A stretch of DNA of 64,000 bases from Aquabacterium commune (GTDB taxonomy: Bacteria > Pseudomonadota > Gammaproteobacteria > Burkholderiales > Burkholderiaceae_C). The stretch lies in contig NZ_SNXW01000008.1 of the NCBI RefSeq assembly GCF_004362855.1, forward strand, positions 124,001 through 188,000. Direction: 5' to 3'. The notes under the pieces were generated by a model. It did not search any database. It was not told where the DNA came from and saw only the letters and a program-made list of their open reading frames with translations. This document shows, piece after piece, positions 893 through 13,106 of the stretch (its first letter is position 1; every line of letters begins with the position of its first letter). The position numbers were made by a program, and so were the translations under genes.

Positions 893-3505
893 GTGCCTGT
901 GGACACGTCATCGCCGCAGGGACTGAGTCAGGCCGAGGCCCGCGCGCGGCTGCAGGCGCACGGCTTCAACGAGCTGCCGCAGGCCCGACGGCGCAGCGTC
1001 TGGCGCATGGCCGCCGAGGTGCTGCGCGAGCCGATGTTGCAGCTGCTGCTGGCCGCGGGCGGCATCTACCTGCTGCTGGGCGACCGCGGTGAAGCGATGA
1101 TGCTGATGACCTTCGTGGCGCTCACCATCGGCATCTCGCTGCACCAGGAGCGCCGCACCGAGCGCGTGCTCGAAGCCCTGCGCGACCTCAGCAGCCCGCG
1201 TGCGCTGGTGCTGCGCGATGGCCAGCGCTGCCGCATCGCTGGGCGCGAGGTGGTGCCCGGCGACTGGCTGGTGCTGGCCGAGGGCGACCGCGTTCCGGCC
1301 GATGCGGTGGTGCGCGAGGCGCAGGCGCTGCAGGCCGACGAGTCCCTGTTGACGGGGGAGTCGGTGCCGGTGCGCAAGGCCGCGAGCGGCGAGGCGGTGT
1401 CGTCCGCAAGCTGGGCCGCGGTGCGACCCGGTGGCGACGACCTGCCCATGGTGTTCGCCGGCTCGCTGGTGGTGGGTGGCCACGGCCTGGCCGAGGTGGT
1501 GGCCACCGGTGCGCGCAGCCAGATGGGCGCCATCGGCCAGGCCTTGCAGGCCATGGAGGCCATGCCCTCGGCCTTGCAGCGCCAGACGCGGCAGATGGTG
1601 CGCCTGTTCGCCGTGCTGGGGCTGGGCCTGAGCGCCCTGGTCATTGCCCTGCACGGGTGCTTGCGCGGCGATTGGCTGGCCGCGGTGCTCAACGGCATCA
1701 CCCTGGCGATGTCGATGTTGCCGCAGGAGTTCCCGCTCATCCTCACCGTGTTCATGGCGATGGGGGCGTGGCGCTTGTCGGCCGTGCGCGTGCTGGTGCG
1801 CCGTGCCAGCGCCATCGAAACGCTGGGCGCGGCCACCGTGCTGTGCACCGACAAGACGGGCACGCTCACGCTCAACCGCATGGCCGTGGCCGAGTTGTGC
1901 GTGGCCGGGCAGACCTGGCGGGTCACGCACAGCCTGCCCGAGGCCTTCCACCCGCTGCTGGAGTACGGCGTGCTGGCCAGCCAGACCGAGCCGCTGGACC
2001 CGATGGAGCAGGCCCTGTGGCGCCTGGCCCGCGAGCAGCTGCCCGAGCCCGAGCGCACCCACATGCAGACCCACCTGCACCCCGACTGGCGCCTGGCGCG
2101 CGAGTACGCCCTGAGCCCCGAGCTGCTGGCGATGTCGCACGTGTGGGCGCAACCGGGGCACCGCCAGCACCTGATCGCGGCCAAGGGCGCTCCCGAGGCC
2201 GTCGCCGATCTCTGCCACCTGCCCGAGGCCTTGCGCGCCGAGTGGCGGCAGCAGGCCGAGGCCATGGCCGCGCGCGGCCTGCGGGTGCTGGGTGTGGCGC
2301 AGGCCCGCCACGAGGGCCCTGCGCCCGGCGAGCCCTGGCCGGCCATCCAGCACGACTACGACTTTGAGTTCCTGGGCCTGATCGGTTGGCTCGACCCGCT
2401 GCGTCCGGGCGTGCAAGCGGCGGTGGCGCGTTGCCGCGAGGCCGGCATCCGCGTGGCCATGGTCACGGGCGACCACCCGGCCACCGCCTTGGCCATCGCC
2501 GAGCAGGCGGGCATCGACGTGCGCGCTGGCGCCTTGCGGGGCGAGGCGCTGGAAGGCCTGTCGGATGCCGACCTGGCCCTGCGCGTGCGCGACACCCATG
2601 TCTTCGCGCGCGTCATGCCCGAGCAGAAGCTGCGCATCGTGCGGGCCTTGCAGGCCAGCGGTGAGATCGTCGCCATGACGGGCGATGGCGTCAACGACGC
2701 GCCTTCGCTCAAAGCGGCCGACATCGGCGTGGCCATGGGCGCGCGCGGCACCGACGTGGCCCGCGAGGCGGCGTCGCTGGTGCTGCTCGACGACGACTTC
2801 CAGGCCATCGCCCAGGCCGTGCACCTGGGCCGACGCATCAACGACAACCTGCGCAAGGCCATGGCCTTCGTGCTGGCCGTGCACGTGCCGATTGCCGGGT
2901 TGACGCTGTGGCCCTTGCTGGCGGGCTGGCCTCTGTTGTTCATGCCGGTGCACATCGCCTTCCTGGAGCTCATCATCGACCCGGTGTGCTCGGTGGTGTT
3001 CGAGGCCGAAGCCGCCGAGCCCGACGCCATGCGGAGGCCGCCGCGGCGACCCGGTGCGCCGCTGATCGACCGCGCGCAGGTGCTCTGGAGCTTGCTGCAA
3101 GGCGCGGTGGTGCTGGCGTGCGTGGGCGGCTGGTACGCTTGGTTGCTCTCGCCCGATGCCGGCGCGCAGGCGTGGCTGGGCGCGCTGGACGAGGCTCAGT
3201 CGCGCACCGCGGGCTTCGTGGCGCTGGTGGTGGCCGATGTGGCGCTGATCTTGAGCAACCGCACGCTCACCCAGCCCGTGTGGGTGGCGCTGGGGCGGGC
3301 CAATGGCGCGCTGTGGCGCATGTTGCTGGCCACCGGCGTGGTGCTGGGCGGCATCCTGCTGTGGGCACCGCTGCGCGGGCTGTTCCACTTCGGGCCGCTG
3401 TCGGCCCCGGTGCTGGGCGGCGCGGTGGCGGTGGGGGTGGCCTGCCTGCTGCTGCTGGAGCTGCTGAAGGCGGTTCGGGCTGCGGCGGCCCCGCGCGCGG
3501 CGTGA
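893..3505 (+). CDS. P-type cation-transporting ATPase (P2-like)
   Basis: 870 residues with the complete P-type ATPase signature set: actuator motif TGES at residues 154-157, phosphorylation motif DKTGTLT with Asp320, and hinge TGDGVNDAP at 596-604. An N-terminal cation-ATPase domain precedes two transmembrane helices, and the C-terminus has the four-helix cation ATPase C domain. The helix before the phosphorylation site carries PQEFP in place of the PEGLP of classical Ca2+ pumps, which places it in a bacterial subfamily whose ion is not settled. Start is GTG (893, or GTG at 899), one base after the DUF1345 stop. Transported ion is unknown; a divalent cation or proton is possible. Confidence 0.9.
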   Translation: MPVDTSSPQGLSQAEARARLQAHGFNELPQARRRSVWRMAAEVLREPMLQLLLAAGGIYLLLGDRGEAMMLMTFVALTIGISLHQERRTERVLEALRDLSSPRALVLRDGQRCRIAGREVVPGDWLVLAEGDRVPADAVVREAQALQADESLLTGESVPVRKAASGEAVSSASWAAVRPGGDDLPMVFAGSLVVGGHGLAEVVATGARSQMGAIGQALQAMEAMPSALQRQTRQMVRLFAVLGLGLSALVIALHGCLRGDWLAAVLNGITLAMSMLPQEFPLILTVFMAMGAWRLSAVRVLVRRASAIETLGAATVLCTDKTGTLTLNRMAVAELCVAGQTWRVTHSLPEAFHPLLEYGVLASQTEPLDPMEQALWRLAREQLPEPERTHMQTHLHPDWRLAREYALSPELLAMSHVWAQPGHRQHLIAAKGAPEAVADLCHLPEALRAEWRQQAEAMAARGLRVLGVAQARHEGPAPGEPWPAIQHDYDFEFLGLIGWLDPLRPGVQAAVARCREAGIRVAMVTGDHPATALAIAEQAGIDVRAGALRGEALEGLSDADLALRVRDTHVFARVMPEQKLRIVRALQASGEIVAMTGDGVNDAPSLKAADIGVAMGARGTDVAREAASLVLLDDDFQAIAQAVHLGRRINDNLRKAMAFVLAVHVPIAGLTLWPLLAGWPLLFMPVHIAFLELIIDPVCSVVFEAEAAEPDAMRRPPRRPGAPLIDRAQVLWSLLQGAVVLACVGGWYAWLLSPDAGAQAWLGALDEAQSRTAGFVALVVADVALILSNRTLTQPVWVALGRANGALWRMLLATGVVLGGILLWAPLRGLFHFGPLSAPVLGGAVAVGVACLLLLELLKAVRAAAAPRAA

Positions 3506-3529
3506 TGGGCCCTCGGCCCAGCCTCAGCC

Positions 3530-4222
3530 TCAGTAGCGGTAGCTGATGCCGATGCTGGCCTGCGGCAGCACGCGCACCTTGGCGACGTTGTCGCGCAGCT
3601 CGCCGGTTTTCACGTCGATGTCGTTCTGCGTGAGGATGCCGGGGTAGTTCTCCAGCAGGTTCTGGTGCACGCTGAGCTTGGCGCGCCCGATGGACACGCC
3701 CACATCGGCGATGAAGCCCCAGCCGGCTTCGCGCGCCTGGTGGCCCCAGCCCAGCCCGAAGTAGGGCGTGATGCGCGGGATTTTCACCGTCGCATCGAAG
3801 CGGTCGTTGGCGGTGGGCGTGATGGTCGTCTGGTTGAACGTGACCGAGGTGTTGCCGTCGAAGCGTGTCTTCAGGGTCAAGGCCGTGTCGTTGATCGTCA
3901 GGCCTGTGGTGAAGCGGAAGCGCCCGCCGAACGGGAAGTAGTCGCCGAACAAACCGATGCGGTTGTACTTGAACTTGACGCTGTAGGGGATGCCCGATTC
4001 CGTGCGGCTGCGGGTGAACGAGCCGGTCGTGCCCGCGTCCACACGCAGGCCCAGGTGTGGGTTCACCGTGTGCGCATAGCCCACCACGACGCCCGGCAGG
4101 CCCACGCTGCCATAGACCTCACCGGCGAGGCTGGCGGGCGCCCAGGTCAGGCAGGCCAGGCTGAAGCCGCTCAGTGCCAGCAGGGACGACAGGGGCAGAG
4201 ATGTGGGCGCACGACGTGCCAT
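3530..4222 (-). CDS. putative outer-membrane beta-barrel protein
   Basis: 230 residues from the chosen start (MARRAPTS...). A signal peptide with a basic N-region, a hydrophobic core (LALSGFSLACL) and a likely cleavage after ASLA is followed by alternating hydrophobic/polar strands rich in Gly, Thr and aromatic residues. The protein ends in SYRY, and a C-terminal aromatic residue is typical of BAM substrates. I do not recognise a named family; the overall look is of an eight-stranded OmpA/OmpW-like barrel of unknown function. An in-frame upstream start at 4270 would add 16 residues before the signal peptide and is less likely. Convergent with the P-type ATPase gene. Confidence 0.7.
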   Translation of the reverse strand: MARRAPTSLPLSSLLALSGFSLACLTWAPASLAGEVYGSVGLPGVVVGYAHTVNPHLGLRVDAGTTGSFTRSRTESGIPYSVKFKYNRIGLFGDYFPFGGRFRFTTGLTINDTALTLKTRFDGNTSVTFNQTTITPTANDRFDATVKIPRITPYFGLGWGHQAREAGWGFIADVGVSIGRAKLSVHQNLLENYPGILTQNDIDVKTGELRDNVAKVRVLPQASIGISYRY

Positions 4223-4357
4223 GGCAAAGCTCCGGATCAGGACGGTGGGGCCTTGACTGTAGGAGCGCACCGTGTCACGCCAAAGGCCAATGAGTGACCT
4301 GAGGCGGGGGCTGTTCGTCGTTTGGGGCCGCCTGGGGAATGCTGGCCCCCGACCGTT

Positions 4358-4618
4358 TCAGCGCTTGCGCGGCGGCGGGGGCATGCCCGGTCCGCGGCCT
4401 TCGATGTGGCGGAAGGTGATGCGGCCCTTGCTCAGATCGTAGGGCGACAGCTCCAGCGACACCTTGTCGCCGGCCAGGATGCGGATGTGGTTCTTGCGCA
4501 TCTTGCCGCCCGAGTAGGCGATCAGGGTGTGGCCGTTGTCCAGGGTCACGCGAAAGCGGGAATCGGGCAAGACTTCGTCCACCTTGCCTTGCATTTCAAT
4601 CAGGTCTTCTTTGGACAA
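4358..4618 (-). CDS. infA: translation initiation factor IF-1
   Basis: 86 residues beginning [19 protein letters not shown] and continuing through [29 protein letters not shown] and [11 protein letters not shown]: the single S1-type OB fold of IF-1, which binds the A site of the 30S subunit during initiation. The tail after HIEGRG is Pro-rich ([10 protein letters not shown]), as in the longer betaproteobacterial IF-1. No ATG is placed where the family starts. A TTG at 4616-4618, preceded by AAGGAAG at a spacing of 5-6 nt, gives the expected N-terminus. A GTGGGG-ACAA-CCCCAC hairpin (4675-4690) lies in the upstream leader. Confidence 0.93.
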
Positions 4619-4674
4619 GGGGGCTTCCTTGAGTGTGTTGGGGAAGGGGGGTTGAACACAGATTTGTCCTGCTT

Positions 4675-4690
4675 GTGGGGACAACCCCAC
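4675..4690. other. perfect hairpin in the infA/oxidoreductase divergent region
   Basis: GTGGGG (4675-4680), loop ACAA, CCCCAC (4685-4690). It lies about 57 bp upstream of the infA TTG start and 89 bp upstream of the divergent oxidoreductase start. No T-run follows on either strand, so it is not a terminator. It could be a leader structure of infA or an operator; neither is shown by the sequence. Confidence 0.4.
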
Positions 4691-4778
4691 AGTGTAGCGC
4701 GGGGTGCAAGAAAGCGCCAGCGTCTGCAGGGCCATCCCAAATCTCGGAAGATGGCTTCCTTGCCCAGGAGCCCCCCCC

Positions 4779-5813
4779 ATGAAAGCCATCGCCTACCGCC
4801 AGGCCCACACCCTCGCCGACGCCCCCGGGCTGGAGGACGTCACCCTGCCGGACCCCGTGCCCCAGGGGCGCGACCTGCTCGTCGAGGTGCGCGCCATCTC
4901 CGTCAACCCGGTGGACACCAAGGTGCGCCGCAGCACCAGCGCACCCGAAGGCGGCTGGCAGGTGCTGGGCTGGGATGCGGCCGGCGTGGTGCGCGCGGTG
5001 GGGCCGGAGGTCACGGCTTTCCGAGTCGGCGACCGGGTCTGGTACGCGGGCGACATCACCCGACCGGGCACGAACGCCGAGCTTCACCTGGTGGGCGAGC
5101 GCCTTGTCGGGCCGATGCCGCAGACGCTGGACTTCGCTCAGGCCGCGGCCCTGCCACTGACCGCCATCACCGCCTGGGAGCTGCTGTTCGACCGCCTCGG
5201 CCTGACCGCCGGCGAAGCTTTCGCGCCGCAGAGCCTGCTCATCGTTGGCGCGGCCGGCGGGGTGGGGTCGGTGCTGACGCAGCTGGCGCGGCAGCTCACC
5301 CGCGCCACCGTCATCGGCACGGCCTCGCGCCCCGAAACCCAGGCCTGGGTGCGCGAGCTCGGCGCCCACCACGTCATCGACCACACGCGCCTGCTGGCCG
5401 AAGAGCTGCAGCGCATCGGTGTGCCGCAGGTCACGCACATCGCCAGCCTGACGCAGACCGACCAGCACTTCGCGCAGTGCGCCGAGGCCATCGCGCCGCA
5501 AGGCCGCATCGCCCTGATCGACGACCCGGCGCCCATCGACGTGCGCTTGCTCAAGCGCAAGAGCGTGTCGCTGCACTGGGAGCTGATGTTCACGCGCTCC
5601 CTGTTCCAGACCGAGGACATGGCCGAGCAGCGCCGGCTGCTGACCGAGGTGTCCCGGCTGGTGGACGCGGGCACCCTGCGCAGCACCGTGGCCGAGCACT
5701 TCGGTGCCATCAACGCGGCCAACCTGCGGCGTGCCCACGCCCTGATCGAGTCAGGACAGGCGCGCGGCAAAGTCGTGCTCGAAGGCTTCGCGCAGGACGA
5801 AACCCCACGCTGA
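4779..5813 (+). CDS. zinc-binding alcohol dehydrogenase family protein / quinone oxidoreductase
   Basis: 344 residues of the medium-chain dehydrogenase/reductase superfamily. An N-terminal GroES-like domain ([16 protein letters not shown]) is followed by a Rossmann domain with the nucleotide-binding loop [12 protein letters not shown]. The Cys/His ligands of zinc alcohol dehydrogenases are absent, so it is a zinc-free quinone-oxidoreductase-like member, probably NADPH-dependent. Start ATG 4779 opens at the family N-terminus MKAIAYRQ; an AGGAG lies close upstream. Its stop is 17 bp from the xth remnant at 5831, which preserves the ancestral convergent arrangement of this gene with xth. Physiological substrate unknown. 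Confidence 0.87.
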
Positions 5814-5830
5814 GCCTCGCCCCACTGTCG

Positions 5831-5945
5831 TCATAGGCTGAACTCGTAATCGATCGTCAGCGGCGCATGGTCGCTGAATCACTGGTCCTTGAAGACGCTG
5901 GCGGCTTTGGCCGTGGCCGCCAGGCCGGGTGTGGCCAGGTGGTAG
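5831..5945 (-). pseudogene. remnant of the 3' end of xth (exonuclease III)
   Basis: 115 bp that match 9896-10010, the last 37 codons plus stop of the intact xth gene, at 110 of 115 positions. In the xth frame three of the five differences are synonymous, one is a missense (Ala266 to Glu) and one turns Trp254 (TGG) into TGA at 5879-5881. The match stops abruptly at 5945/5946. The left edge is the normal stop codon and adjoins the end of the oxidoreductase gene. It is the displaced 3' end of xth, left behind when the 5.95-9.9 kb cassette entered. Confidence 0.9.
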
Positions 5946-6127
5946 CCCATCCGGCAAATGACCCACATTCAGATGACGTCTGTCGGCCCTGACTGGACTT
6001 TCAGTTTCTTGATCTTGTCGCCCCCAAGCGGTCATCCAAGCCTATGCCATTGCGCTTGATGGCTTCTCCCCAGCCATCCCGGCATGCTTGCATGCGTTGC
6101 AGTGCTGGTGCCACTTCGCAAAGGATG
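5946..6127. other. cassette left end, no convincing gene
   Basis: Sequence between the xth remnant and the cassette promoter. Short open frames exist on the minus strand (for example 6001-6201), but they have no ribosome binding site and no recognisable protein, and they cross the promoter of the operon. No integrase, inverted terminal repeat or tRNA is visible. Confidence 0.5.
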
Positions 6128-6155
6128 TTGACAGGCGAATTCAAATGAATACAAT
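6128..6155 (+). promoter_or_regulatory. sigma-70 promoter of the PspA/flotillin operon
   Basis: TTGACA (6128-6133), a perfect -35 box, and TACAAT (6150-6155), one mismatch from the -10 consensus, are separated by 16 bp. The stretch is much more AT-rich than its surroundings. Transcription should begin near 6162, giving a leader of about 28 nt before the ATG at 6190, which has AAGGTGA as ribosome binding site at 6177-6183. Confidence 0.8.
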
Positions 6156-6170
6156 CGAATTCAATCGAAT
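6139..6170 (+). promoter_or_regulatory. candidate operator: palindrome plus tandem repeat over the promoter
   Basis: ATTCA-AA-TGAAT (6139-6150) is an inverted repeat filling the -35/-10 spacer. CAATCGAAT occurs twice with a 10-bp period (6152-6160 and 6162-6170), covering the -10 box and the start site. Repeats spaced by one helical turn are the usual target of ribbon-helix-helix repressors, and the first gene of the operon looks like one. Autoregulation is an inference. Confidence 0.5.
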
Positions 6171-6189
6171 AAAACCAAGGTGACCCGCC

Positions 6190-6699
6190 ATGGTTGCTCA
6201 CGCACCCGCCACTTCAATGGAGCCGCTCTCGGCCCGAATTCCGAGCGACCTCTACCTCTGGCTCGCTCAACTCCAAGTCGAAGGTGCCACCACGAACAGC
6301 GATAAGCTGCGAGTCCTGCTCGGGCAGCTCAAGCGGCAGCACGATGGTGAGCTCGACTACGTTGCCGCACACGCCTGGGCCCGCGATCTGATGCGCCGGT
6401 TGCGCGAATCGCTTGTCCGTACCGAGGGGCGAACTGGCAAGCAATCCGAAGTGGTGAACTTGTTGCTCGACCACCTGACTTCCACGCTGGCCCTGGTGGT
6501 GAGCCAGGCACCGGCCAGCGAAGGCGACGCCACCAAGTTTGAGGAGGCCTTGGTTCGCCGCGCCTTCGCCCTGTGTGAAACCCTGCTGCGCCAAGGCACC
6601 ACGCCGAGCGCGGCAGCTTACGATCCAACCGTTGTTCGGCGCCTGATGGCGCCGACGATCGAACTGGTCATGAACCTGCAAACCTCGAAAGGATCCTGA
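6190..6699 (+). CDS. putative ribbon-helix-helix-like protein, first gene of PspA/flotillin operon
   Basis: 169 residues, family not recognised. Residues about 11-45 (PLSARIPSDLYLWLAQLQ, then a helix ending TTNSDKLRVLLGQL) have the pattern of a ribbon-helix-helix fold: a short basic strand followed by two helices. A second similar segment occurs near RTGKQSEVVNLLLDHL, so the protein may contain two such units or a helical dimerisation region. The remainder is helical. It starts 34 nt after the promoter -10 box and ends one base before the PspA gene. A DNA-binding autoregulator is the most economical role, but it could be an adaptor of PspA. Confidence 0.55.
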   Translation: MVAHAPATSMEPLSARIPSDLYLWLAQLQVEGATTNSDKLRVLLGQLKRQHDGELDYVAAHAWARDLMRRLRESLVRTEGRTGKQSEVVNLLLDHLTSTLALVVSQAPASEGDATKFEEALVRRAFALCETLLRQGTTPSAAAYDPTVVRRLMAPTIELVMNLQTSKGS

Positions 6700-6700
6700 G

Positions 6701-7375
6701 ATGTCCGATACCCTCAAGGCCCGCGTCGGCCGAGTCATTGCAGGCAGCATGCATGCGCTGCTCGATCGAATCGAAGACCAAGCGCCGGAGGCCATGATGG
6801 AGCAATCCATCCGCGAAGCTGACGCAGTCATCGACGACGTCAGGCATGAGCTCGGCGTGGTTTCGGCGAATCGACATCTCTCGCAACAGCACCATGCCAG
6901 CCTGAACAGCCAGCACGCCAAGCTGGCGGCACAGATCGACGATGCCCTCGTGGGCGGCCGCGAGGACCTGGCCCGCGCCGGTGTGGCCCGGCAGCTCGAC
7001 ATCGAAGCGCAACTGCCGGTGCTCGAGACCACGCTCGGCGAGTACACCCGTCAGGAAGGTGAACTGCAGGGCTATGTGGCAGCACTGCTCGCGAAAAAGC
7101 GCGAAATGCAGGAGGCGCTGACCGAGTTTCGCAAGAGCCGCGCAGCGGCAGCGGCTGCGTCCTCGATGGCCGGCGCGGCGGGTGGCACCGCAGCGCATCG
7201 CATCGACGGTGTTGCCGGCGCGTTCGACCGCATCTACGAGCGTCAGACGGGGCTGTCCGGAACGGCACGCGGCAACACTTTGCAGCAAGCTGCCCAACTC
7301 AAAGAGCTCGACGACATGGTGCGCGACAACAAAATTGCCGAGCGCATGGCGCAATTGAAGGCGAACAAGGCATGA
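6701..7375 (+). CDS. PspA/IM30 family protein
   Basis: 224 residues, almost entirely helical coiled coil. It opens MSDTLKARVGRVIAGSMHALLDRIEDQAPEAM-type, the typical PspA/IM30 N-terminus in which an amphipathic helix binds the inner membrane and is followed by P.....-QSIRE. PspA/Vipp1/IM30 proteins are ESCRT-III relatives that polymerise on damaged membranes. The protein resembles E. coli YjfJ more than PspA, and no PspF or PspBC genes are nearby. A short Ala-rich stretch (AAAAAASSMAGAAGG) separates the core from a C-terminal helix. ATGA overlap with the next gene. Confidence 0.85.
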   Translation: MSDTLKARVGRVIAGSMHALLDRIEDQAPEAMMEQSIREADAVIDDVRHELGVVSANRHLSQQHHASLNSQHAKLAAQIDDALVGGREDLARAGVARQLDIEAQLPVLETTLGEYTRQEGELQGYVAALLAKKREMQEALTEFRKSRAAAAAASSMAGAAGGTAAHRIDGVAGAFDRIYERQTGLSGTARGNTLQQAAQLKELDDMVRDNKIAERMAQLKANKA

Positions 7376-7998
7376 GCCTGTTCGCGGCACCGCAGAACCT
7401 GCCTTTTGGCATTGGTTTCGCGCTCATTGTCGGCATCGCCTTGCTCGAAGGGGTGGGCATGCTGGTCTCGATGAGCCCAAGCAATTTTCTGGACGACCTG
7501 CTGCCAGACATCGATGGTGACTCGGGCCTGGACCGCGTGCTGGGCTGGCTGCACGCGGGCAAAGTGCCAGCATTGGTGCTGCTGTTGCTGTTCCTCTGCG
7601 GCTACACGGTGTTTGGGTACAGCCTTCAAGTCGTTGCCAACGGACTGTTCGGCGGCTACCTGCCTGCCTGGTTGGCGGGTCTGCTGGCAGTGCCTGCTGG
7701 CATGGCGACGGTGCGTGGCCTGGGATCGCTGATCGCGCACATCATTCCTCGTGATGAAACGAGCGTGGTCAGCGAGCAGAGTCTCGTCGGCCGGGTGGGG
7801 GTGATCGTCGGTGGCGGCGCTCGCCGTGGTCTGGCCGCGCAGGCGAGGGTGAAAGACAGCCATGGACGATCTCATTACCTGATGGTGGAGCCGGACATCG
7901 ACGACGAGGTCTTCAACGAAGGCACTCAGGTGCTGATCGTCAGGAAGGCGGGCGCTTTTTACCGGTGCATCGCCAACCCACACCCGACACTGATGTGA
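7372..7998 (+). CDS. YqiJ-like membrane protein with OB-fold domain
   Basis: 208 residues. N-terminal half has about three membrane helices (FGIGFALIVGIALLEG; ALVLLLLFLCGYTVFGY; LAGLLAVPAGMATVRGL), followed by IPRDETSVV and a soluble beta-rich domain (VGRVGVIVGG...ARVKDSHGRSHYLMVEP) that ends shortly after VLIVRK. This is the architecture and the IPRD...G...HYL.vEP pattern of E. coli YqiJ, an NfeD-related partner of the flotillin YqiK. It overlaps the PspA gene by four bases (ATGA) and lies 48 bp before the flotillin gene, so the pair is conserved here. Confidence 0.83.
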   Translation: MSLFAAPQNLPFGIGFALIVGIALLEGVGMLVSMSPSNFLDDLLPDIDGDSGLDRVLGWLHAGKVPALVLLLLFLCGYTVFGYSLQVVANGLFGGYLPAWLAGLLAVPAGMATVRGLGSLIAHIIPRDETSVVSEQSLVGRVGVIVGGGARRGLAAQARVKDSHGRSHYLMVEPDIDDEVFNEGTQVLIVRKAGAFYRCIANPHPTLM

Positions 7999-8046
7999 CG
8001 GGCCGGGCCGCCACACCATGAATCAACCTGAGGGAGCAAAGACAAC

Positions 8047-9738
8047 ATGAACAATCTGATTGATCTGATGACCATCGCAGGCATTGCCCTGCTTTCATTG
8101 CTGACCATCGGCATCGTCTTCGCTCGGCTGTACAAGCGATCGACCAAAGAGACTGCCTTCGTCCGCACCGGCCTGGGCGGGCAGAAGGTGATCATGGACG
8201 GTGGCGCCATCGTGCTTCCGGTCTTCCATGAGCGCGTGCTCGTGAATATGAACACGCTCAAGCTGGAAGTCGTCCGCCGCGAGCGTGAGAGCCTCATCAC
8301 CAAAGACCGCATGCGCGTTGACGTCACGGCAGCGTTCTTCGTTCGGGTGAAGCAGACCGAGGAATCGGTGAGCATTGCGGCGCAGACCCTTGGCACGCGA
8401 ACCATGAGCCCCGACGAACTCAAGGCTCTGGTCGAGGACAAGTTCGTCGATTCGCTTCGCGCAACCGCAGCCACGATGACCATCCAGGAGCTTCAGGACA
8501 AGCGCCGCGATTTCGTGCAGGCGGTCCAGAACGCCGTCGCGGAAGACCTGGAGAAGAACGGCCTCGAACTGGAGTCGGTTTCCTTGACGAGCTTGGACCA
8601 GACCGACAAGCAGTTCTTCAACCCGAACAATGCGTTTGACGCAGAGGGTCTGACGCGACTCACCGAGCAAACCGAGGCCCGCCGCAAACAACGCAACGAC
8701 GTCGAGCAGGACACCGAGGTTCAGGTGCGGACCAAGAACCTGGACGCGACGCGCCAGAAGCTCACCATCGAAAAGGACCAGGAGTTCGCGACGCTGGGCC
8801 AGCACCGCGAAATCGAAGTCACGCGTGCCGAGCAGGCCGCACTGATCGCCTCGCAGCAGGCCGATCGCACCCGCGAAGCCGAGGCAGCGAAGATCGAGGC
8901 GGAACGGCAGGTCAGCCAGAAGCGCATCGAAGCCGAACGAGAGATCAAGGCAGCAGAGATCGAGAAGAACCTCGTCATCCAGACGCGCGAGATCGAGTTG
9001 GAGCGCAAGACCGAGATGCAGCGTGCGGAGCAGCGCAAGCAGGTGGAGATCGCGCGTCAGGACACGCAGATCGCGATCGCCAACAAGTCGCGCGAGCAGT
9101 CCGACGCCGATGCCGCAGCCAACTTGGCCCGGGCCGAAGCTGTCAAGGCGGAAGAAGGCGTGAACACCGCTCGCCAGGTGGCCGTGGCTGAGCGCGATAG
9201 GAGCATCCAGTTGATCGAGGCCTCGAAGGAAGCCGAGCAAAACGCCATCGCAGTCAAGGTGTCGGCCTCGGCGGAGAAGGAGGCCGCGCTTGATCGCGCC
9301 GAAGCTGTGACCATCGAGGCCAAGGCGCGGCAAGCCGCTGCGCTGGCGGAAGCCGAGGGCAAGCGGGCGATCAACGAAGCGCTGAACACCTTGTCGGCCG
9401 CGCAGATCGACCTGCAGGTTCGAACGCTGCTGCTGCAACAGCTCCCTCAGATCCTGGAGCAGGCGGTGCGACCCATGGAGAAGATCGAGTCGATCCGCAT
9501 TCTCCAGGTCAGCGGCATGCCGGGCGCGGGGAACGTCACCAGCGATGGCTCGGCACATGGCACCAACGGCGGCGGGGCGACGTTTCCTGAGCAAGTGATG
9601 AACTCGGCGCTGCAGTACCAGCTTGCCAAGCCCATCGTCGATGCCGTGATGAAGGACGTCGGTCTGACAAACGACGGCATCACGGGGATGGCCAGCGCCT
9701 TGTCGGGCATGCTCAAGAAGCCAGAGGAACAAGGCTGA
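8047..9738 (+). CDS. flotillin family protein (YqiK-like)
   Basis: 563 residues. One N-terminal membrane helix (LMTIAGIALLSLLTIGIVFARLY) leads into an SPFH domain (about 40-230: TGLGGQKVIMDGGAIVLPVFHE, RVDVTAAFFVRV). A long Glu/Ala/Lys/Arg-rich coiled coil (about 230-450) and a flotillin C-terminal region follow. Flotillins form membrane microdomains and cages; with YqiJ they are thought to affect membrane fluidity and envelope stress tolerance. Start ATG 8047 has GAGGGAGC upstream. Last gene of the cassette operon; the 157 bp after it hold no recognisable gene before the xth 3' end. Confidence 0.9.
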   Translation: MNNLIDLMTIAGIALLSLLTIGIVFARLYKRSTKETAFVRTGLGGQKVIMDGGAIVLPVFHERVLVNMNTLKLEVVRRERESLITKDRMRVDVTAAFFVRVKQTEESVSIAAQTLGTRTMSPDELKALVEDKFVDSLRATAATMTIQELQDKRRDFVQAVQNAVAEDLEKNGLELESVSLTSLDQTDKQFFNPNNAFDAEGLTRLTEQTEARRKQRNDVEQDTEVQVRTKNLDATRQKLTIEKDQEFATLGQHREIEVTRAEQAALIASQQADRTREAEAAKIEAERQVSQKRIEAEREIKAAEIEKNLVIQTREIELERKTEMQRAEQRKQVEIARQDTQIAIANKSREQSDADAAANLARAEAVKAEEGVNTARQVAVAERDRSIQLIEASKEAEQNAIAVKVSASAEKEAALDRAEAVTIEAKARQAAALAEAEGKRAINEALNTLSAAQIDLQVRTLLLQQLPQILEQAVRPMEKIESIRILQVSGMPGAGNVTSDGSAHGTNGGGATFPEQVMNSALQYQLAKPIVDAVMKDVGLTNDGITGMASALSGMLKKPEEQG

Positions 9739-9895
9739 GAGTGCTCATCGATCCTGCGCGGAAGCGATGGCACAAGGGTTGCTGCAAGACGGCTCATCTT
9801 CCCGGCAAATCCGCCACGTCGAGCAGTACGCATCAGCGAAGGCGTCGCCCTCCAGTGACCTACCGTCTGTGGTTCTCATCCTCGCAAACTCACAC

Positions 9896-10705
9896 TCACA
9901 GGCTGAACGCGTAATCGATCGTCAGCGGCGCGTGGTCGCTGAACCACTGGTCCTTGAAGACGCTGGCGGCTTTGGCTGTGGCCGCCAGGCCGGGTGTGGC
10001 CAGGTGGTAGTCGATGCGCCAGCCCACGTTCTTGGCCCGTGCCTGGCCGCGGTTGCTCCACCACGTGTAGCAGGCGTCGGTCGTGTCGGGGTGCAGGGCG
10101 CGGTACACGTCAACCAGGCCGGTGTCGCCCGCCGGGTCGAGCAGTTGCGTCATCCAGGCGCGCTCCTCGGGCAGGAAGCCGGAGTTCTTGAGGTTGCCCT
10201 TCCAGTTCTTCAGGTCGGCTTCCTGGTGCGCGATGTTGACGTCGCCCACGAGGATGAACTCGCGCTCGGCGCGCAGCCGGGCCAGGTGAGGGCGGATGAC
10301 ATCGAGGAAGCGGAACTTGGCCTGCTGGCGTTCTTCGCTGCTGGAGCCTGAGGGGAAGTAGCAGCTGATGAGCGACAGCTTGCGCCCCGGCTTGTCAAAG
10401 CGCATCTCCACGTACCGGCCTTCGGCGTCGAACTCGCCGTTGTCTGCCTCGCCCAGCCCGACGATGACGTCAGAGGGCGCGATGCGGCTGTACAGGCCCA
10501 CGCCCGAGTAGCCCTTTTTTTCCGCGTGGTGGAAGTGACCCGGCATGCCGGCGATTTCGCGCAGCTCCGGGCCCATGTCGCTCGCCTGGGCCTTGAGTTC
10601 CTGCACGCCCATACAATCGGCGCCGTGGCTCTCAGCCCACTCGCGCATGCCCTTGTTGGCCGCCGAGCGGACGCCATTGAGGTTGAAAGAGACCAGTCTA
10701 AACAC
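9896..10705 (-). CDS. xth: exodeoxyribonuclease III
   Basis: 269 residues of the ExoIII/APE1 family: opens MFRLVSFNLNGVRSA, catalytic Glu36 in QELKAQ, the LISCYFPSGS strand, metal/active-site segment VGDVNIAH, and C-terminal SDHAPL with His258. It repairs AP sites and degrades dsDNA 3' to 5'. All catalytic residues are intact. Divergent from pyrE with 14 bp between the start codons, so the two promoters must overlap the neighbouring coding regions. Its last 115 bp are duplicated at 5831-5945. Confidence 0.96.
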   Translation of the reverse strand: MFRLVSFNLNGVRSAANKGMREWAESHGADCMGVQELKAQASDMGPELREIAGMPGHFHHAEKKGYSGVGLYSRIAPSDVIVGLGEADNGEFDAEGRYVEMRFDKPGRKLSLISCYFPSGSSSEERQQAKFRFLDVIRPHLARLRAEREFILVGDVNIAHQEADLKNWKGNLKNSGFLPEERAWMTQLLDPAGDTGLVDVYRALHPDTTDACYTWWSNRGQARAKNVGWRIDYHLATPGLAATAKAASVFKDQWFSDHAPLTIDYAFSL

Positions 10706-10719
10706 AGCGCACCACCATC

Positions 10720-11409
10720 ATGAGCAACTCCCCCGCACAAGACACCCTGGCCCAGGACTTCGTGGCCTTCGCCGTTGAATCCAGGGTGCTGCGATTCGGG
10801 GAGTTCAAAACCAAGGCAGGCCGGCTGTCGCCCTACTTCTTCAACGCCGGCCTGTTCGACGACGGCGCCAAGCTGGGCCGACTGGCTGAATTCTATGCAC
10901 GCCGCCTGGTCGCCTCCGGCTTGCAGTTCGACATGCTCTTCGGGCCGGCCTACAAAGGCATCACCCTGGCCGCTGCCGTGTCGATTGAACTGGCCCGCCT
11001 GGGGCAGAACAAGCCCTTCGCCTACAACCGCAAGGAAGCGAAAGACCATGGCGAGGGCGGCACCCTGGTGGGCGCGCCGGTGCAGGGCCGTGTGCTCATC
11101 ATCGACGACGTGATCTCGGCGGGCACCTCGGTGCGCGAGTCCATCGAGATGATCAAGGCGGCAGGCGCCACGCCCTGCGGCGTCACCATCGCCCTCGACC
11201 GCCAGGAAAAGGCCACGGTGACCACCGCCACCGGCCCGCAGGAAGCCGCCGAGAGCGCCGTGCAGCAGGTGCAAGGCCAGTACGGCCTGCCGGTCGTGGC
11301 CATCGCCACCCTGGCCGACCTGATGGGCTTCCTCGATGTGCAATCCGACGCGGCCCTGGTGTCCGCCCGCCCGGCTGTGCAGGCCTACCGTCAACGCTAC
11401 GGCGTCTGA
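10720..11409 (+). CDS. pyrE: orotate phosphoribosyltransferase
   Basis: 229 residues with FKTKAGRLSPYFFNAG at the N-terminus, the GPAYKGITLA loop, the flexible basic loop (YNRKEAKDHGEGG), and the PRPP-binding motif VLIIDDVISAGTS. It transfers phosphoribose from PRPP to orotate to form OMP in UMP synthesis. Length and motifs match the proteobacterial enzyme; an insertion around ATGPQEAAESAVQQ precedes the last strand. Monocistronic by appearance, divergent from xth. Confidence 0.97.
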   Translation: MSNSPAQDTLAQDFVAFAVESRVLRFGEFKTKAGRLSPYFFNAGLFDDGAKLGRLAEFYARRLVASGLQFDMLFGPAYKGITLAAAVSIELARLGQNKPFAYNRKEAKDHGEGGTLVGAPVQGRVLIIDDVISAGTSVRESIEMIKAAGATPCGVTIALDRQEKATVTTATGPQEAAESAVQQVQGQYGLPVVAIATLADLMGFLDVQSDAALVSARPAVQAYRQRYGV

Positions 11410-11479
11410 GACGTTCTATGATGGCCTGATCACACCCCCATCAGACCCAGGAGAGGGGCTTTGCGGCCCAGGAGCACAG

Positions 11480-12238
11480 ATGAGCCTGTTGTCGGTCGCC
11501 GATGACCGTCGGTCAAACCGTTTGCATCGCCCGGATGGGCGGGGCGCGCTGCCGTGCGCGATGGCTGGCATGTCGGCGCGTGCCTCGGTGTGGCTGGGCC
11601 TGAGCGCGACCTGGCTGGCGCTGGCCGCACCGGCCCAGGCCGCGGGCATCTACTCCTGCGTGGACGCCAACGGCAAGCGCCACACCTCCGACCGCCCGAT
11701 CGCCGAGTGCCTGGACCGAGAACAGCGCGTCCTCAACAAGGATGGCTCGCAGCGCCAGACCCTGCCGCCGCGCATGAACGCCGAAGAGCGCGCCCTGGCC
11801 GAAGAGCGCCAGCGCCTGCAGGAGCAGGCCCAGGCCGCGCAAAAAGACGCTGTTCGCCGCGACCGCAACCTGATGCTGCGCTTCCCCGACGAGGCCGCGC
11901 ACAACAAGGCCCGCGAGGCCGCGCTCGACGACCTGCGGCGAGGGGTGATCCTGTCCGAGCGGCGCTTGCAGGATTTGCGCGACGAGCGCCAGCCCCTGCT
12001 GGCCGAAACCGAGTTCTACAAGGGCCGCCGCCTGCCCTACAAGCTCAAGTCCAAGCTGGAGGCCAACGACGCCCAGCAGCAAGCGCAGCGCGACATCATC
12101 CAGAACCAGAACGCCGAGACGGTGCGCATCAATGCGCTGTACGACGCCGAGCTGGCCCGCCTGCGCCGCCTGTGGGCCGGGGCTGCGCCAGGGTCGGTGC
12201 CGCCCGCCTCGGACGCCGTGCCTGCCCGCAAGCGCTGA
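11480..12238 (+). CDS. DUF4124 domain-containing exported protein
   Basis: 252 residues from ATG 11480, which has AGGAG at 5 nt spacing. A signal-peptide-like segment (ASVWLGLSATWLALAAPAQA) is followed by GIYSCVDANGKRHTSDRPI, the DUF4124 motif of periplasmic proteins. The rest is a charged helical coiled coil (NAEERALAEERQRLQEQ...) ending in a basic tail. With the 11480 start the signal segment begins near residue 30; ATG at 11561 or 11570 would give a normal signal peptide but lacks a ribosome binding site. Function unknown. Confidence 0.78.
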   Translation: MSLLSVADDRRSNRLHRPDGRGALPCAMAGMSARASVWLGLSATWLALAAPAQAAGIYSCVDANGKRHTSDRPIAECLDREQRVLNKDGSQRQTLPPRMNAEERALAEERQRLQEQAQAAQKDAVRRDRNLMLRFPDEAAHNKAREAALDDLRRGVILSERRLQDLRDERQPLLAETEFYKGRRLPYKLKSKLEANDAQQQAQRDIIQNQNAETVRINALYDAELARLRRLWAGAAPGSVPPASDAVPARKR

Positions 12239-12272
12239 ACCCGCGAGGGAGATGGGGCCTGAACCTCAGCCC

Positions 12273-13106
12273 TCAGCCCAGCACATTGCGGCGCCCCAGG
12301 CCCAGCTTGTTGGCCAGCCAGAAGCGCATGTGGTAGCGGTGCTTGCGCAGATAGACCTGGGCCTTGCGCAGCGGCGGGTAGTCGCGGTACTCGGCGCGGC
12401 CCCCCCCGATCACCGAGGCGGCGATGTCGGCGCCCACCTGCCAGAACAGGTCGGGGCTGGCGGAGTACACGGTCAGGTCGCGCTCCCAGTGATGCTTGAG
12501 TTCGAAGTCCACCGGACGCAGCAGATGCTCGCGCTTCGGGGTGAGCTTGGCCGCGCCGCGGCGCGACACCAGGTAGGCCGTGCCGTCTTCGGGGCCCTTG
12601 CCGCCGAAACACAGGGCCAGCGGCGTGCCTTGGCCCGCATCGCCTGAGACCTGGCCCACGCTGCCCACCCGCTTCGCGCCCTGACGCAGCCGCGTGAGCT
12701 TGAGCACGTCCCAGGGGTGCGCGCCGGTGGCCGAGTCGGCCAGCGCCTGCAGGTTCTGCAACGTGCAGATGTCGTGGGTCTGGAAGTCGTCCTCCAGCAC
12801 CAAGGCGCAGTCCAGGCCGCGTTCCGCGATGAGCTGCCAGCAGCGCAGGTGGCTCAGGAAGCAGCCGATCTCGCCCGGGGTGAGCGGGCGGAACCACTCG
12901 CCGTGCGGCGCCGGATGCGGGTTGAGCGCGGCCAGGCGGGCCGCGTCCAGCCGTTTGCCTTCGATGCCGGGCACGCGCTCCCAAGTCACGCCCAGGGCGT
13001 CGAGGAGGGGGGCGCAACGCGCCAGGCGGTCGGCCGAGCGGTCGAGGTTGATGAGGAAAACGTGCAAGGGCATCGGCTGGGCCGGTGGGGGCGCCGGGCT
13101 CGCCAT
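12273..13106 (-). CDS. glycosyltransferase family 25 (LPS-type)
   Basis: 277 residues of the GT25 family: VFLINLDRSADRLAR at the N-terminus, PGIEGK, LTPGEIGCFLSHLRCWQ, ALVLEDDFQ with the DxD-like acidic pair, and later YLVSRRGAAKL. GT25 enzymes transfer galactose or glucose to lipooligosaccharide. The start ATG overlaps the gatB stop by one base (TGATG), implying translational coupling to gatB; an internal ATG at 13073 opens directly at the domain (MPLHVFLINLDRS). Sugar donor and acceptor unknown; no other LPS gene is adjacent. Confidence 0.85.
   Translation of the reverse strand: MASPAPPPAQPMPLHVFLINLDRSADRLARCAPLLDALGVTWERVPGIEGKRLDAARLAALNPHPAPHGEWFRPLTPGEIGCFLSHLRCWQLIAERGLDCALVLEDDFQTHDICTLQNLQALADSATGAHPWDVLKLTRLRQGAKRVGSVGQVSGDAGQGTPLALCFGGKGPEDGTAYLVSRRGAAKLTPKREHLLRPVDFELKHHWERDLTVYSASPDLFWQVGADIAASVIGGGRAEYRDYPPLRKAQVYLRKHRYHMRFWLANKLGLGRRNVLG

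Follow-up and report, generated by a model that had tools for sequence, protein, structure and literature searches.

The 3′ end of xth, the gene for exodeoxyribonuclease III, occurs twice in a 64,000-nucleotide stretch of the Aquabacterium commune genome (contig NZ_SNXW01000008.1, positions 124,001 to 188,000). This whole stretch is referred to below as the window and its genome as G000; other genomes and fetched loci carry G and L numbers. The two ends, at 5831–5945 and 9896–10010, are identical at 110 of 115 positions, compared with a best score of 52 for the same 115-mer in 20 shuffles of 5701–9800, and a repeat finder draws the pair out to 126 nt at 93% identity. They differ at 5834, 5844, 5867, 5879 and 5912. 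On translation, one difference is a TGA for Trp254, one is Glu for Ala and three are silent (codon numbers refer to the xth of the window). Four open reading frames (ORFs) on the plus strand lie between the two ends (Table 1). A first-pass annotation, made from the sequence alone, had described this duplication around a four-gene operon, the dead left copy and the three synonymous differences, all of which were borne out. The oxidoreductase gene on the left is a native neighbour of xth and convergent with it. No tRNA gene was detected in the 64-kb window.

The close relative G009 (L038) has a single xth, contiguous with this oxidoreductase gene and convergent with it, with about 33 bp between the stops, where the window instead has the cargo and a second tail. 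Window positions 4758–5956 align with 2–1237 of L038 and positions 9910–13064 with 1126–4250, such that the window flanks overlap on L038 by 112 bp, which is the xth tail. Judging from the uninterrupted site in this close relative, the window cassette is an insertion. An empty site of this kind, with the two genes convergent, is what the first-pass annotation had proposed to look for. In a second close relative, G026 (L039), the oxidoreductase gene and xth are separated by about 1.6 kb of other sequence, and there is no remnant; the ORFs at 5252–6701 (window orientation) are different ones, by eye PEP-CTERM-like and outer-membrane-like.

Insertions at xth are not confined to the window. Using the last 44 residues of xth as a query, a tail match was found in 42 of 42 genus genomes, and six of the 42 contain at least two (G000, G006, G013, G005, G004 and G064). 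G013 has two extra matches, G005 a partial one and G004 an extra match on another contig, while the second match of G064 was rejected as a remnant, being a long xth on another contig. In the family survey, 380 of 399 genomes have a tail match, and 17 besides the window have at least two. In 14 of these 17, a truncated tail lies on the same contig as the functional tail, 0.25–11 kb away and in the same orientation; G101, G242 and G337 were excluded because their second copies of xth are long or at contig ends. A truncated tail, 0.1–11 kb downstream of xth, is therefore present in 15 of the 399 family genomes, window counted, in all 15 in the orientation of xth, although two of the matches are weak (G149, E 3e-5; G208, E 7e-5). 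Among 169 fetched loci, 25 have tail matches downstream of the xth stop (30 matches, duplicates included), and none has an opposite-strand match below 1e-5. In the order survey (399 genomes, 12 of them from the family of the window, which is included), 54 genomes of other families with two tail matches were searched again. Short remnants were found outside the family in G802 (L207, with the junction motif described below) and G587 (L208, with a shorter tail), and G561 has an isolated short tail on a contig other than that of xth. Most other second matches were paralogues with open frames of more than 250 codons.

The remnants share a breakpoint. Nineteen of the 21 tail matches with E<1e-6 begin at positions 1–12 of a 45-residue query, corresponding to about codons 225–236, and the commonest start is position 6, codon 230. 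This count leaves out L106, L107, L132 and L133, which repeat L035, L033, L085 and L082, and the two strong matches of L171 are one remnant with a frame change, so that the 21 matches represent 20 places. The search for other cargo at the same codons of xth, also suggested by the first-pass annotation, was successful in relatives. Tandem arrays of different cassettes exist as well: the one-contig genome G363 contains two remnants in tandem with different cargo, which makes assembly error unlikely as a general cause, and G013 has two remnants, the inner one without the motif. In Roseateles koreensis hw8, a cultured carrier, the remnant is degraded. Two irregular loci were seen in these surveys. 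An isolated xth tail at 7597–7743 of L037 (G004:C185) has no xth in the 14 kb fetched around it and is perhaps a moved cassette end. In L077 (G371), xth (1944–2657) aligns over about 30 codons fewer than the query, resembling an internal deletion or an assembly fault.

A motif just before the remnant tail, about AATGTRGGTTTTTTGYCGCATTGACTACCAC in the sense of xth, is common to the cassettes, and the intact xth of the window reads AACGTGGGCTGGCGCATCGACTACCAC at the same place. The consensus of the motif is GTRGGTTTTTTGYCGCATTGACTACCAC; 16 of 17 clear junctions contain G[TC][AG]GGT, whose frequency per position inside cassettes is 0.0017. Seven unclear or degraded junctions were excluded (L035, L036, L061, L084, L085, the inner L034 remnant and the second L074 match); counted as failures, they reduce the proportion to 16 of 24. 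The 17 are not all independent: L078 and L171 have a cassette in common, and the insertion in L072 and L077 looks like a single inherited one. The junction of L207 was a later addition by eye. No 8-mer upstream of the motif is found in more than five of 21 rows. The GTGG...CCAC ends of the 28-bp junction suggest the core site of a tyrosine recombinase.

Comparisons with congeners that lack an insertion indicate which tail is native. The xth of L079 (G100) is 97% identical to that of its congener G223 (L193; wider locus L210), and the three 30-nt bins ahead of the core reach 100%; beyond it, identity in the functional tail is 67–83%. By contrast, the remnant and the DNA beyond it match L210 at 93% (4903–6855 to 2512–4466). 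The same pattern is seen between L082 (G406) and G184 (L189; wider locus L211), where xth is 93% identical and then 60–77% after the core, with the remnant and flank matching L211 at 93% (5266–8040 to 3215–5992). A drop at the core is also present in L075/L196 and L033/L064 and is less clear in L078/L203. Since identity within xth drops at the WRIDYH codons while the remnant and flank match the uninserted congener, the functional xth of some genomes, on these alignments, combines its native body with a tail of foreign origin, the native tail surviving as the remnant.

Cassettes shared between genomes complement these pairs. L078 and L171 carry the same cassette, 92–100% identical per 60-nt bin, while the rest of xth is 65–82% identical. 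The shared stretch runs from about 30 nt ahead of the xth stop to the junction, and the remnants differ from the core on. Within each genome, the start of the functional tail agrees with the start of the remnant, over about 22 nt in L078 and about 40 nt in L171 (read off the alignment), which we read as a subsequent conversion to the native sequence. L079 and L085 share the start of a cassette, with 75% identity over 100 nt after the stop (background mean 44.5%), as well as the last 30 nt of the tail.

The reading that we favor, with a probability of about 0.75, is that a trans-acting recombinase inserts cassettes site-specifically in the WRIDYH codons of xth, the insert of the window being a non-autonomous cassette. 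The attachment site would lie in the V-G-W-R-I-D-Y-H codons near codon 230, and each cassette would bring its cargo together with a short terminal motif (about GTRGGTTTTTTG) and a replacement xth end. When host and cassette recombine at the codon-230 core, the xth body of the host would be joined to the tail of the cassette, so that xth stays whole, and the native tail of the host would remain on the far side of the cargo as a remnant. With the attachment site restored in the rebuilt xth, a second cassette could enter it and form a tandem array. The common breakpoint, the shared junction motif, the differing cargoes, the uninterrupted sites and, in some genomes, the native remnants and foreign functional tails are directly seen; we infer the recombinase at work, its action in trans and a circular form.

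Several results weigh against this reading. No recombinase was found among the Pfam-scanned proteins of the window and the other cassettes, although not every listed ORF was scanned, and neither a circular form nor an autonomous element was found. The motif is absent in L084 and in the inner L034 remnant, and the isolated tail of L037 has a slightly different boundary. There is no sharp drop in identity at the core in L080/L204 and L084/L200. In a table of 15 remnant rows from 14 loci (other carriers had no fetched congeners, were not entered or fell under the E-value limit, as L085 did), the remnant is on average closer to the congeners in nine rows and the functional tail in six, the window among these six. 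In the pairs L078/L171 and L079/L085, each sharing a cassette, the functional tails have no more than about their last 30 nt in common, and for this reason we conclude that functional tails can be mosaic. The window itself shows no fall in identity to L038 and L039 at the core. In a tree built from the final 114 nt of xth (114 columns, 41 rows of the genus, mostly weak inner branches), its right and left tails are sisters at 98/85, beside the two nearest relatives (80/75).

By analogy with L079/L210 and L082/L211, 9896–10010 would be the cassette-borne tail; since the two tails are sisters in the tree, a foreign origin of the right tail stays putative, and it may represent a pickup from the same lineage or later gene conversion. 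The first-pass annotation had regarded the locus as an integrative element that restores its target gene. The insertion and the other cargoes at the same codons in relatives agree with this, and the tail has been replaced in two pairs of other genera; replacement in the window itself, with a right copy derived from a related genome, is putative. Taken alone, the sister tails are the outcome that the annotation had named as contradicting it, and they also fit a same-lineage tail or gene conversion.

Other explanations account for parts of these data. Homologous recombination alone, by which circles or transforming fragments with an xth tail would integrate through a single crossover in the 115-bp homology, the motif being a fossil of the founding cassette, accommodates the mosaic functional tails, with about their last 30 nt common to carriers of one cassette, and the near-identical tails of the window. 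A crossover inside the tail, however, would give remnants that start alike in L078 and L171, and the divergence of these two from the core on speaks against it. The change sits at the core in L079/L193 and L082/L189 as well, and a fossil junction would hardly keep about 16 bp while the DNA upstream differs between cassettes. We therefore consider this explanation unlikely. It is clearly less probable again that insertion itself produced the tail, as a long target-site duplication, and that the element did not bring it. Functional tail and remnant are indeed mutually closest in the window, L072 and L077 and near-identical by eye in L207, but in L079, L082, L075 and L033 they are only 62–75% identical, whereas the rest of xth is 87–97% identical to the congener. 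Sister tails would also result, in the window taken by itself, if the xth end had been duplicated locally in tandem and the operon inserted later between the copies. This explanation is the least probable of the three, by a little: the junction at 5939–5966 has the motif of other cassettes, and no adjacent tails without cargo were seen among the second matches in the 42 genus genomes.

A recombinase and an autonomous parent element were sought in several ways. The first-pass annotation had noted that no integrase remains, which is true of the window; the loss that it implied need not be the reason, because no recombinase is present among the scanned proteins of the other cassettes either. No transposase was detected among the scanned cargoes, and the repeat is a gene end of about 115 bp with a fixed boundary, which does not correspond to an insertion sequence or transposon. 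The junction pattern, with three mismatches allowed, matched five places in the 399 family genomes, all of them known xth remnants, and missed most known junctions; the reversed pattern, used as a control, had no match. In IMG/VR, there was no exact match to a junction pattern, and a tail profile had no relative: of 28 stretches that matched a peptide pattern, none passed tblastn. The 44-residue tail matched two phage and seven plasmid records over 91–98% of the query. Four of these nine records are annotated as exodeoxyribonuclease III and five, of 2–4 Mb, look like chromosomes; none was taken as a parent element. With a 141-bp junction query, plasmids gave no match, and the single phage matched, which is listed twice, aligns at a helicase gene. 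All 41 genus genomes searched contain PF00589 matches, so candidate recombinases exist; none is linked to the cassettes, and IntI was not sought on its own. Two neighbouring PF00589 matches at G000:C12 36940–39325 (frames of 439 and 361 aa), with similar pairs in G011 and G035, are unlinked to xth.

The operon in the window encodes, besides an ORF without Pfam, NCBIfam or PADLOC matches, PspA/IM30, YqiJ and flotillin family proteins, and from these families it is probably involved in membrane stress. It had been described as foreign-looking, in keeping with a homologue of ORF1 in only three of the 42 genus genomes, the window's own counted. In the other two (G010 and G016), ORF1, pspA, yqiJ and the start of the flotillin gene occur together on contigs other than those of xth (L216 and L217). 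The same four-gene order is annotated on plasmid pVF1 of Vitreoscilla filiformis (L218, 4992–8546). Given its presence in G010, in G016 and on pVF1, the operon is an accessory unit that exists elsewhere too and is held in the window as a cassette, and the plasmid copy means that this cargo may move by other routes as well. Two imperfect direct repeats at 6131–6170 (ACAGGCGAATTCAAATGAAT and ACAATCGAATTCAATCGAAT), directly upstream of the operon, are possibly an operator.

Other cassettes range from about 0.1 to 8 kb and differ in cargo (Table 1). Pfam gave no match for the scanned proteins of L076 and L079 or for one protein each of L072 and L074. The beta-lactamase of L082 passes the NCBIfam class C cut-off, and its best family model is IDC, below IDC's own cut-off; the IDC family is described as coming from integrons (PMC7148499). 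L034, L036 and L061 have related chemotaxis-receptor genes beside xth in three genus genomes, and similar sequence ahead of the receptor on the remnant side in L034 and L036 suggests an old shared insertion.

Table 1. Features of the window and cargo encoded by other cassettes at xth.
Locus	Feature	Position	Strand	Evidence or remark
Window	Alcohol dehydrogenase/quinone oxidoreductase-type gene	4704–5813	+	ADH_N, ADH_zinc_N, ADH_zinc_N_2; true start may be further in
Window	Dead remnant of xth, its displaced 3′ end, with TGA at codon 254	5831–5945	-	110/115 repeat; joined to oxidoreductase flank as in G009
Window	28-bp junction site, GTGGTAGCCCATCCGGCAAATGACCCAC on + strand, attL-like	5939–5966	-	Fits junction motif of other cassettes
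Window	Cassette cargo region, about 3.9 kb	5967–9895		Absent from uninterrupted site of G009
Window	ORF1, 169 aa, first gene of operon	6190–6699	+	No Pfam, NCBIfam or PADLOC match
Window	PspA/IM30 family protein	6701–7375	+	PF04012, E 7.6e-17
Window	YqiJ-family inner membrane protein with OB fold	7372–7998	+	PF21001, PF07290 (YqiJ_N, YqiJ_OB)
Window	Flotillin, presumably YqiK-like	8047–9738	+	PF15975, PF01145 (Flot, Band_7)
Window	Functional 3′ end of xth	9896–10010	-	Repeat of 5831–5945
Window	xth, exodeoxyribonuclease III, 269 aa, open frame	9896–10705	-	PF03372; TIGR00633 and TIGR00195 above cut-off
Window	24-bp site, GTGGTAGTCGATGCGCCAGCCCAC on + strand, attB/attR-like, spanning V-G-W-R-I-D-Y-H codons of xth	10004–10027	-	Most remnants start at these codons
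Window	Phosphoribosyltransferase gene, neighbour of xth start, which we take to be pyrE-like	10720–11409	+	PF00156; adjoins xth in nearly all xth loci compared
L033	Fic protein			
L034	Chemotaxis receptor			
L035	Nucleotidyltransferase			
L072	HicB-like antitoxin			
L073	C5 methyltransferase and EcoO109I-like endonuclease			
L075	Flavodoxin, MFS transporter, aldo/keto reductase, LysR and TetR regulators, others			
L078	AAA_21 and RloB-like protein			PADLOC AbiLi and AbiLii
L080	CcdA and CcdB			
L081	Only about 120 bp between xth stop and junction			
L082	Beta-lactamase family, main ORF of cassette	7806–8969	-	Comamonadaceae metagenome-assembled genome
L083	Phd/YefM antitoxin and ParE toxin			
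L207	AraC regulator			
L208	GGDEF protein			

The xth cassettes have features in common with several known systems. Integron cassettes are small units of one or a few accessory genes with an element of about 100 bp at one end, sometimes in tandem. The xth cassettes are likewise small accessory-gene units with an end element of about 100 bp, tandem in places, but their repeated element is a coding xth tail and not attC, and their site is in xth and not attI. Inspection of the junctions by eye showed no GTTRRRY or RYYYAAC boundaries, an attC search program not having been used. Xer/dif-dependent integrative elements lack an integrase and are moved in trans at a core of about 28 bp. The xth cassettes resemble them in having no integrase seen, a core of about 28 bp and a putative trans-acting recombinase, although their core does not look like dif by eye. 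An E. coli dif pattern, with three mismatches, has no match in this genome, whose own dif was thus not located. In Pseudomonas, integron-like elements insert site-specifically at a hotspot in rulB of plasmid pWW0 (PMC4542609). Like xth, rulB is a gene linked to DNA repair. Insertions in rulB, however, are not known to rebuild their target, and they have an integrase.

Compared with gene-restoring islands, one site with a replacement 3′ end is found in L079/L210 and L082/L211 and through the common breakpoint, the replacement in the window being putative, and flanking direct repeats (attL, attR) are present in the window and elsewhere. Gene-restoring islands are larger and encode their own integrase, whereas the xth cassettes are small, vary in cargo and have no recombinase among their scanned proteins. 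Like islands of the SGI1 type, the xth cassettes occupy a fixed position near the end of a housekeeping gene, SGI1 being presented as an integrative genomic island at the 3′ end of trmE (PMC8409611), and integrative islands at the 3′ end of a gene are described as able to rebuild that gene (PMC12884075). The main text of the latter paper contains neither xth nor exodeoxyribonuclease. In the open-licence PMC literature, no description of insertions at xth was noticed in the titles and abstract starts of the matches listed.

The chances seem evenly balanced that these insertions represent a new cassette system of Burkholderiales. In such a system, a recombinase encoded away from the cassettes would recognise a site of about 28 bp in the W-R-I-D-Y-H codons and swap in integrase-less cassettes that rebuild the gene end, and, in parallel to integrons, xth would be a platform on which the chromosome captures genes of the defence, toxin-antitoxin, stress and resistance types. 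The combination of two xth tails and one junction motif offers a simple handle by which other genomes can be screened for such cassettes, and it gives the hunt for their recombinase a concrete form. The findings point to a platform for gene capture that belongs neither to integrons nor to tRNA-linked islands, lies at a conserved motif of a repair enzyme and is found in a large bacterial family. Because part of the cargo is defence-like and in one case resistance-like, this platform may move such genes among environmental Burkholderiales.

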